Assembly: GCA_029210645.1 (NCBI GenBank)
Contig: JARGFT010000014.1
Coordinates: 1 to 36,222 of the forward strand
Length of the DNA: 36,222 nucleotides
From: Anaerosomatales bacterium
GTDB taxonomy: Bacteria; Actinomycetota; Coriobacteriia; Anaerosomatales; SLCP01
Direction: 5' to 3'
The translations under genes were made by a program, and so were the position numbers. The notes beneath the pieces are model-generated. The model had not been told where the DNA came from. It did no database searches and worked only from the letters and a program-made list of their open reading frames with translations. Every line of letters starts with the position of its first letter. The stretch's first letter is position 1. Below, one piece after another: positions 58 through 10,197 of this stretch.

Positions 58-440
58 GTTACGCTTCGTGACCGGACTCTGCGTCACGTTGGGTGAACCA
101 GACAATCCAGGTGCGGACTGATGTCCGACTAGGCAAAGCTTGGTGGTCAAGAACGCGAAGGCAACCCTAACACCGCCTCCCGATTGCCACCCGCTTCGGG
201 TAGATAGCCCGATGGCCCGACAAGGCTCCTTGCGAGGCGGGCTCTCTCCTCCTCGATGGGTCCGAGCAGTGAACCCGAGGCGGCGTCGACAGTCAGCTCC
301 CGGTCAGCTCCGGGTTAGAGGCGACTGACACGATGCCCCCATGAGACCTCGGGCCACCTACACCAAGCTGACCGCCTACAGCTGCCCCGCGGGCAACGAT
401 GCATGGCTAGATCCCGGACGAGCGCCCACCTTGCAAGAAC
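58..440. other. Intergenic stretch, no convincing gene
   Basis: I see no gene here with ribosome binding site, length and codon use all in agreement. A small perfect hairpin (ACCCG-ctt-CGGGT) lies at 189-201, and a second pair of arms (AGCCCG near 207-212 and CGGGCT near 238-243) follows. Together they could end transcription of the upstream gene, although no U run follows. A 62-codon open frame at 140-328 is Arg/Pro-rich and resembles nothing I know. Confidence 0.35.
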
Positions 441-8828: not shown

Positions 8829-8857
8829 AACGCCGCCTCCGGGCGGCGTTCTTCGTT
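8829..8857 (+). terminator. Rho-independent terminator after rplT
   Basis: AACGCCGCC (8829-8837) pairs perfectly with GGCGGCGTT (8842-8850) around a tccg loop. CTTCGTT follows, so the U-run is short. The hairpin is strong enough to end the infC operon. Confidence 0.75.
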
Positions 8858-8862
8858 GTCCG

Positions 8863-9010
8863 GCACCGCCGGTGCCTCGGTGCCAGGTGGTCACATAACG
8901 GAAAGGGATGGCTCACACCTCTCGGCTACGGTGCGTGTGCGGGCCGGGGTCCGATCCCCGGCACCGCGCCAACAGCCACCGGCTTCCCCTCGGCCAGCCG
9001 GAGAGGGGAG
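8863..9010 (+). promoter_or_regulatory. Structured leader with SD-hiding hairpin before TasA-like gene
   Basis: Several strong pairings lie here. CGGTGCC (8878-8884) can pair with GGCACCG (8960-8966) to close an ~85-base domain, in which AGGTG (8885-8889) pairs with CACCT (8916-8920). GCCGGGG (8943-8949) pairs with CCCCGGC (8956-8962), and this stem shares bases with the closing stem, so the two cannot form together. Next to the start, CCCCTC (8986-8991) pairs with GAGGGG (9003-9008), covering the Shine-Dalgarno of the gene at 9016. Mutually exclusive stems plus a hidden SD look like a translational riboswitch. I could not match it to a class I know, such as GEMM, T-box or cobalamin. Confidence 0.5.
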
Positions 9011-9015
9011 TCACG

Positions 9016-9498
9016 ATGAAGAAAGCGATTGTGTGGGCCTGCGTCATGGCGATCGCGGGCAGTGTGGGGTTCGCGGGGGCGTATTTCACCGCCCAGACAT
9101 CGGTGCAGGAGAACGTGATCAGCGCCGGGACCGTCGCGGTAACGGCAGCTCCGGAGGTCGGGGCGATCTCGATGGAGAACCTGGCGCCGGGCACGCCCAC
9201 GAGCCGGGTGCTGACGGTGGCCAACACCGGTTCGCTGCCGGTCGACGTGAGCGTCACCGAGGCCAAGCGAGCAGGAATCACCGAATTCTACAATGCGCTC
9301 ACGTGCTCCGTGACCACCACCGGACAGCCCGTCTACGAGGGTGCGCTCGCGGGCATGCAGACCGCGCCGGTGCGCCTCGCACCCGGTGAGAGCGCTGAGC
9401 TCGAGTTCGCCGTCACCATCCCTGCCGAGGCTCCCAACAGTCTCACGGGCGACTACGTCAAGATCACGCTCTACGTGGACGCGGCCCAGGCGCTATGA
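9016..9498 (+). CDS. TasA/camelysin-like exported protein, SipW-type signal peptide
   Basis: 160 residues. The N-terminus (MKKAIVWACVMAIAGSVGFAG) is a signal peptide, followed by AYFTAQTSVQENVISAGTV, the typical SipW-dependent end of TasA/CalY-like proteins. The body is a beta-sandwich-like domain (LAPGTPTSRVLTVANTGSLPVDVSV, LAPGESAELEFAVTIPA, YVKITLYVDA). TasA relatives are secreted and build fibres or act as surface proteases in firmicutes; the role here is unproven. AGAGGGGAG lies 5 bases before ATG 9016 and can be hidden in an RNA hairpin. The TGA overlaps the next ATG (ATGA), so the exported protein and its presumed peptidase are coupled. Confidence 0.7.
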   Translation: MKKAIVWACVMAIAGSVGFAGAYFTAQTSVQENVISAGTVAVTAAPEVGAISMENLAPGTPTSRVLTVANTGSLPVDVSVTEAKRAGITEFYNALTCSVTTTGQPVYEGALAGMQTAPVRLAPGESAELEFAVTIPAEAPNSLTGDYVKITLYVDAAQAL

Positions 9499-9836
9499 CA
9501 CTCAGGTCGCTCGCACTCCCGTTCGCTGCCCTTTTCATCGCGTGTGTGACGCATGGCATCGTGGTGGTGACCGGGGGCTCGATGGAGCCGGCGCTCAGGG
9601 CGGGGGACGTATGTGTCTACCGGCGCAGCGCTGACGTCAGGCCGGGGCAGATGGTCGTTTTCGAGCGGGATGGTGCCGGTCTTGTCGTGCACCGTGCGGT
9701 GACCGTCGGCTTGCATGGCGAGGTGCGCAGCAAGGGCGATGCGAACGAGACCGCGGATCGCGAGGAGGTGCCACGAGATCGGGTGCGGGGCCCCGTGACA
9801 CTAGCACTGCCTGTAGGGCGGCTGGTGAACCGCTGA
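9495..9836 (+). CDS. SipW-like (S26B) signal peptidase, minimal form
   Basis: 113 residues. An N-terminal membrane segment (about 6-26) leads into GGSMEPALRAGD with the catalytic Ser29, then VVHRAV with His66 in place of the Lys of ordinary type I peptidases, then SKGDANETAD with Asp82 and Asp88. The His makes it the ER/SipW-type (S26B). SipW of Bacillus is longer and has a second, C-terminal membrane helix; this protein ends shortly after the last catalytic box (RGPVTLALPVGRLVNR). It overlaps the TasA-like gene by 4 bases and very likely processes it. Confidence 0.8.
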   Translation: MTLRSLALPFAALFIACVTHGIVVVTGGSMEPALRAGDVCVYRRSADVRPGQMVVFERDGAGLVVHRAVTVGLHGEVRSKGDANETADREEVPRDRVRGPVTLALPVGRLVNR

Positions 9837-9863: not shown

Positions 9864-10197
9864 CCAATCGCAGACGATGAGGCGATGATGGAGAGGAGCC
9901 GGCGCACCGGGCTCCACCACCAGGAAAGGGACCCGTCTAGACTGGAAGGTCCCGGTGGAGAGGCGCCGGCGGTTCGCTCCGGAGCCGCGACCTGAACGAG
10001 TGCAGCGAAGCGCTCCGGTAGGGAAGCCGGATCCCCCGATAGCGGGACAGCGTGGCAGAGAGGCCGCGACGCGTCGGACCGAGACGGTCCGGGCACAGAG
10101 CGGGTCTGCGGACGCAGGCCAATCGAGGTGGTACCGCGGGAGCCGACTCCCGTCCTCGGGTTCAAACCCGAAGACGCGATCGGCTCCCGTTTCTGTT
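9864..10197 (+). ncRNA. T-box leader for tRNA-Phe, controlling pheST
   Basis: The T-box sequence AGGTGGTACCGCGG lies at 10126-10139. Its bulge TGGT (10129-10132) would pair with the ACCA end of uncharged tRNA-Phe. An antiterminator stem (CGGGAG with CTCCCG just after it) competes with the terminator GGGAGCCGA/TCGGCTCCC. In the presumed stem I, TTC (9973-9975) lies in an internal loop between stems GGAGC/GCTCC and CGGCGC/GCGCCG; it is followed by a purine, as a Phe specifier should be. T-box RNAs stop transcription when the cognate tRNA is charged. The exact stem I boundaries and the specifier are less certain than the T-box core. Confidence 0.9.
10138..10197 (+). terminator. T-box terminator before pheS
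   Basis: GGGAGCCGA (10138-10146) pairs perfectly with TCGGCTCCC (10180-10188). A second hairpin, CGGGTT-CAA-ACCCG, sits in the loop, and GTTTCTGTT follows. It overlaps the T-box core, as expected for the mutually exclusive off state. Confidence 0.85.

Follow-up and report, generated by a model that had tools for sequence, protein, structure and literature searches.

The tasA-sipW locus

The window analysed here, the whole stretch of 36,222 nucleotides, comes from a 1.98-Mb genome of the class Coriobacteriia. Local gene order runs infC-rpmI-rplT, a terminator-like hairpin, tasA, sipW, a pheS T-box and pheS/pheT. The hairpin (8829-8858, plus strand, as are all features of the tasA promoter and leader given below) reads AACGCCGCC/GGCGGCGTT followed by a T-rich stretch, like an intrinsic terminator closing the infC-rpmI-rplT operon, and it has a counterpart in relatives too; its position 3' of rplT suggests that tasA is transcribed from its own promoter. 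We found tasA in 66 of the 69 genomes of the order Anaerosomatales, mostly close downstream of rplT.

The tasA-like gene (9016-9498, plus strand) encodes a protein of 160 amino acids with a SipW-type signal sequence, and its 3' end is overlapped by a sipW-like signal peptidase I gene (9495-9836, plus strand). The first-pass annotation had named this a TasA/SipW-type pair, and several results back that assignment. The tasA product scores above the cut-off of the camelysin Pfam family PF12389, and the second gene is above the TIGR02228 cut-off for signal peptidase I and also matches PF00717. In addition, the AlphaFold model of the tasA product (mean pLDDT 78) has a bundling pilus (7ueg) and a TasA fibre (8aur) as its best two PDB fold matches, so that its predicted fold resembles the TasA fibre. 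Profile matches to the BsaA and TasA families are weak, and at 16 of 450 bits the protein falls short of the curated TasA equivalog cut-off; we therefore describe it as TasA-like rather than as TasA itself.

Further downstream, the pheS T-box leader with its terminator (window 9882-10190) scores 31.7 bits against the Rfam T-box model, with the 3' part covered. This is far below the gathering cut-off of 93, and a standard scan thus misses it.

A triple-repeat promoter upstream of tasA

Upstream of tasA lie three 11-bp direct repeats, GGTCACATAAC, GGAAAGGGATG and GCTCACACCTC (8889-8921), a DNA element that is probably an activator site. They are followed by the -10 element TACGGT (8927-8932), and all four species of the genus have TANNNT at this place. 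Across the order, triple 11-bp repeats scoring at least 9 occur in 76% of 63 tasA promoters compared with 4.6% of shuffles, and they lie at about -111 to -150 in 50 of the 63. An alignment of 50 promoters by their repeats only brought out A (78%) and T (78%) at the two main -10 positions, which had played no part in the selection. The best reading of the genus-conserved block 8889-8932 is a DNA signal, namely a promoter, with transcription predicted to start near 8939.

The spacing between repeats and -10 element agrees with that reported for SARP activators, in which the last (3') of the 11-bp direct repeats stands 8 bp from the -10 element (PMC10936776). The tasA promoter shares both features with SARP/OmpR-type promoters of actinobacteria (AfsR) and differs from them in having three repeats and an activator that is only putative. 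The genome encodes one BTAD protein and seven OmpR-type DNA-binding domains, and a SARP or an OmpR-type regulator would be equally possible as the activator of tasA. The genome's one BTAD (SARP-type) regulator (L229; G000 C4:38402-38836, minus strand) is encoded beside secA and is large, with a C-terminal BTAD besides a likely DNA-binding domain. It is a candidate activator of the repeat promoters. Transcription would probably be driven by an activator bound to the three repeats just 5' of the -10 element, a control separate from that of translation.

The same triple 11-bp repeats are also seen at window positions 290-322 and 2211-2243, where they are followed by the -10-like elements CACGAT and TATAAT, respectively. 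Arrays scoring at least 11.5 number three in the window against about 0.5 expected, and promoters with triple repeats may form a general type in the order. We considered a PHO regulon promoter and rejected it, as no repeat array lies upstream of either pstS copy in the host genome; the only weak repeat match at the two pstS loci is downstream, inside the C3 locus.

The proposed alternative stem and the predicted 5'-terminal hairpin

It had been proposed from the sequence that two alternative stems share bases 8960-8962, one of them pairing 8878-8884 (CGGTGCC) with 8960-8966 (GGCACCG). The complementarity is indeed exact. Between 8863 and 9010 there are five perfect 7-bp helices, where dinucleotide shuffles average 1.0 with a maximum of 4; such helices are common in this GC-rich stretch, and a single 7-bp stem therefore means little alone. 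Similarity to the sister species begins at 8886 (G001) or 8889 (G003), and 8863-8888 is unconserved even within the genus. Sought in relatives, the stem proved unconserved in two of the three sister species while the protein was kept. Since its 5' arm also lies upstream of the conserved promoter (repeats 8889-8921 and -10 element 8927-8932), this arm should be outside the tasA RNA. We regard this stem as pairing at the level expected in GC-rich DNA and find no support for it or for the two-stem layout sharing 8960-8962; the same comparison leaves the helix over the Shine-Dalgarno sequence (SD) intact, as that helix is conserved across the order.

The proposed 3' arm (8960-8966) is absorbed by a 5'-terminal stem-loop of 11 bp (8939-8967; GCGG-GCCGGGG/CCCCGGC-A-CCGC), which is present in both the MFE and the centroid structure and is kept in the sister species with G-U changes. 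Its local z is -3.2 and -4.6 in two species, with an order-wide mean of only -1.0. Many tasA leaders of relatives also have a stem-loop within the first 15-20 nt after the predicted start, for example GCCGCAATCGCGGC and CGCGGGGCCCCGCG; these stem-loops are recurrent and variable in sequence. A tRNA-like reading of GGCCGGGGTCCGATCCCCGGCACCGCGCCA was dismissed, given that ARAGORN finds no tRNA and the conserved unit is a plain hairpin.

Two covarying stems at the ribosome-binding site

The SD of tasA, GAGGGGAG (9003-9010), faces an anti-SD, CCCCTC (8986-8991), that pairs with GAGGGG (9003-9008) in a 6-bp helix, here called S2; its 3' strand extends to 9010 and its 5' strand can be extended to 8984. 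The first-pass annotation had described a 6-bp helix hiding the SD, and this claim is upheld by folding, by order-wide conservation and by covariation. In partner swaps, leaders pair more strongly with their own partner than with any permuted one (0 of 2000 swaps match), and when only the flanks of the anti-SD are swapped, none of 5000 permutations equals the true flanks; both counts take the leaders without regard to kinship. The SD itself varies by lineage (GAGGGG, AGGAGG, GGGGTGGG) and the anti-SD tracks it, giving lineage-specific pairs such as CCCACCCC/GGGGTGGG, GCTCTCCCCT/AGGGGAGGGC and GTCTCC-CCTC/GAGG-A-GGAGAC. The leader thus has the conserved and covarying pairing with the SD that marks an SD-masking cis-regulatory RNA.

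In nested folds, opening the SD in the window costs 6.8 kcal/mol, with a probability of 0.055 that it is unpaired. The order median is 7.4 kcal/mol, and values for a dozen other genes in the window lie between 1.1 and 10.8 kcal/mol. Masking is above average yet not unique, and the argument therefore rests on covariation rather than on energy. The fold of 8863-9030 has z = -2.18, and single-sequence folding is unexceptional (z -1.66). An RNA thermometer seems unlikely to us, S2 being long and GC-rich.

Based on the comparison of leaders, we also identified a hairpin, S1, that carries the anti-SD in its loop and was absent from the first-pass annotation. CCCTC, usually as CCCCTCG, occurs at -60 to -15 in 57 of 63 distinct tasA leaders against 4.9 expected by shuffling, and in 4 of 25 rplT and 0 of 30 rpmI leaders. 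In these 57 leaders it is flanked by the arms of S1 just 5' of the SD; in the window the arms lie at 8979-8984 and 8992-8997, in a register taken from the comparison of 54-56 leaders. With a as the first C of CCCTC, the paired positions are (a-3-i, a+5+i), and 73% of cells are paired in this register compared with 30-61% in slid registers. In the ungapped alignment A4, all 7 pairs are altered on both sides, 65 cells in total. The covariation score of 0.469 exceeds the shuffled value of 0.229 +/- 0.023 (0 of 500 reach it) and that of slid registers (at most 0.262), and 15 compensatory changes map onto the TasA protein tree against 1-5 for slid registers. A gapped MAFFT alignment (A3) splits the S1 register, with much weaker covariation as a result, and the ungapped alignment resolves it. 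CCCTC served as the alignment anchor, so that its invariance there holds by construction; among the compared leaders, no position is strongly conserved besides the anti-SD and the G that closes S1. In the window species S1 is weak, with 4 contiguous pairs, a C.A mismatch and one more pair. From these order-wide comparisons, S1 appears to be a real partner structure.

Being an inverted repeat around CCCCTC at the DNA level, S1 might in principle be a DNA operator instead of an RNA element. An operator would keep its sequence, whereas the arms of S1 vary freely yet stay complementary; moreover, the S2 pairing tracks SD variants, and the element stands about 40-60 nt downstream of the predicted transcription start. 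We consider an operator highly improbable.

Distribution of the leader family

A covariance model of the leader was searched in 149 genomes of the class, 69 in the order and 80 outside. It finds the tasA leader in 54 of the 69, including four leaders (G015, G027, G034 and G054) left out of model building. Outside the order, 11 of the 80 genomes give matches, all of them weak (E 0.004 or higher) and scattered. The model ranks only tasA leaders, and the window's genome has a single copy of the element. About 10% of leaders (families f3 and f16, part of f6, and others) are without the motif despite the presence of tasA, and the motif is therefore not essential. Other pattern matches, before genes judged by eye from their translations to encode malate dehydrogenase, cation-efflux and RadC-like proteins, were discarded, as none shares S1. 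In four of the loci (L165, L166, L167 and L168), a palindrome, TATACCCC-TCG-GGGGTAT, lies about 25-60 nt 5' of the start of a cation-efflux (CDF-like) open reading frame. In these several relatives it overlaps the ribosome-binding region and is reminiscent of a CsoR/RcnR-type operator.

Comparison with all Rfam riboswitch families had been suggested as a check on the leader. Rfam gave no meaningful match for the window leader, even at E up to 10, and no match in 20 homologous leaders, none of which reached a gathering score. Judging by the titles and abstracts of the papers found, and with Rfam as the motif database covered, the leader family is undescribed. Both pairings are conserved, covarying and restricted to tasA in the compared sequences, which point to a new SD-masking leader family of tasA.

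Proposed fold and control of tasA

S1, of up to 7 bp, and the minimal 6-bp S2 use separate bases. In all 52 leaders examined (52/52) the loops have dimensions compatible with a pseudoknot, with about 1 nt in loop 1, none in loop 2 and 5-23 nt in loop 3. With a loop 1 of about 1 nt, no nucleotide between the stems and a loop 3 of at least 5 nt, S1 and S2 can coexist, and the geometry would be that of an H-type pseudoknot burying the SD. The leader of the tasA-sipW mRNA would span about 8939-9015, with the SD-masking knot at its 3' end. The S1 hairpin would offer its C-rich anti-SD loop, CCCCUC, to the SD just downstream, and the resulting pseudoknot would bury the SD, so that tasA would by default be poorly translated. 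Synthesis of the fibre protein would probably be held back until the SD is opened. We infer that S1 and S2 form together, that the knot represses translation and that some factor relieves it. A pseudoknot leader that buries the SD, combined with separately controlled transcription, is our best explanation, with a probability of about 0.68.

Inner bases of S1 are also able to join an extended S2, so that the data could be explained by competing hairpins, with no need of a pseudoknot. The leader would then be a bistable switch between two mutually exclusive hairpins, S1 with the SD free (ON) and extended S2 with the SD hidden (OFF). These inner bases often complement the flanks of the SD, which would lengthen S2 to 8-11 bp at the expense of part of S1, and the nested MFE of the window has the extended S2 without S1. 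On the other hand, the minimal stems do not collide and the loops suit a pseudoknot, while joint conservation of both stems is predicted by either model. Such a switch strikes us as unlikely, though it deserves serious attention.

The leader could also be a fixed translational brake and mRNA stabiliser that does not switch and keeps TasA synthesis low or buffered. There is no conserved sensor part, many leaders also carry the 5'-terminal stem-loop, and transcription would already be served by the conserved, probable activator site, all of which would suit a brake. However, the strong covariation in both stems exceeds the apparent need of a simple brake. We hold this account to be a real possibility, if a doubtful one.

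The leader had initially been put forward as a translational riboswitch, with a surface-fibre gene as a target for a second messenger. The part of this proposal that is supported is a conserved RNA structure masking the SD; the ligand-binding part is not, for want of an Rfam match and of conserved unpaired nucleotides. Signalling could plausibly act on a fibre gene, and preQ1-I riboswitches have the architecture of SD-burying H-type pseudoknots (PMC11625349). Nevertheless, with a loop 1 of about 1 nt and a loop 3 that ranges between 5 and 23 nt and is unconserved in sequence, no pocket is visible, and the leader serves a single gene without metabolic context. Ligand-binding nucleotides conserved outside the helices, as expected of riboswitches in general, are absent from the compared leaders. 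Apart from the anti-SD the loops have no conserved nucleotide, which makes a metabolite pocket unlikely and a metabolite or second-messenger riboswitch an improbable reading. A metabolite is a less likely input than a protein or the ribosome, and also less likely than an absence of switching.

Returning to the pseudoknot that buries the SD, its relief would most likely come through a competing initiating ribosome or a trans-acting protein or RNA. A bolder proposal sees in the tasA leader the founding member of a new class of sensing RNAs, a minimal SD-burying pseudoknot that would respond to its own signal (a ligand or else a protein, for example unexported fibre subunit) and set fibre production throughout the order. 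We offer this as speculation with rather poor odds.

Significance and comparison with known systems

The leader would constitute a new family of cis-regulatory RNAs that Rfam does not contain, with covariation in dozens of species and attached to one gene. It may also represent a very small SD-burying pseudoknot in which no ligand pocket is obvious. The first cultures of Anaerosomatales were described in 2022; in late stationary phase one of these isolates, strain Es71-Z0120, produces a dense extracellular matrix that contains long strands (PMC9686372). For these little-known actinobacteria, the leader provides a testable handle on the control of TasA-like fibres.

The type III preQ1-I riboswitch of E. 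coli, like other SD-burying riboswitches of the H type, has a pseudoknot layout, and, as proposed for the tasA leader, the pyrimidine-rich loop of a hairpin pairs with the SD directly before the start codon (PMC11625349). In the tasA leader both stems covary and their geometry would fit such a pseudoknot. Unlike preQ1-I, the leader is without the conserved specificity bases, the A-rich loop 3 and an Rfam match; its loop 3 differs in length and sequence from leader to leader, its S2 is GC-rich and longer than in preQ1-I, and the element is found only before tasA, which is not a queuosine gene. The proposed layout would be alike while the features of sequence and gene context fail, and we therefore do not file the leader as preQ1-I.

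SD-masking pseudoknots at the ribosome-binding site also control the downstream gene in the ribosomal-protein leaders S15, S4 and L20. The tasA leader resembles these in its proposed pseudoknot at the ribosome-binding site and differs from them in that tasA is not a ribosomal gene, though it lies just after rplT, and in having no Rfam resemblance to them. The locus itself is akin to the tasA/sipW/bsaA operons of Bacillota, with a SipW-processed fibre subunit of TasA type and a signal peptidase, weak BsaA and TasA matches and the predicted TasA fibre fold. To our knowledge, no SD-masking pseudoknot is known at tasA in Bacillota. In Clostridium perfringens, sipW is regulated by temperature and the expression ratio depends on processing of the pilA2 5'-UTR (PMC7395162).
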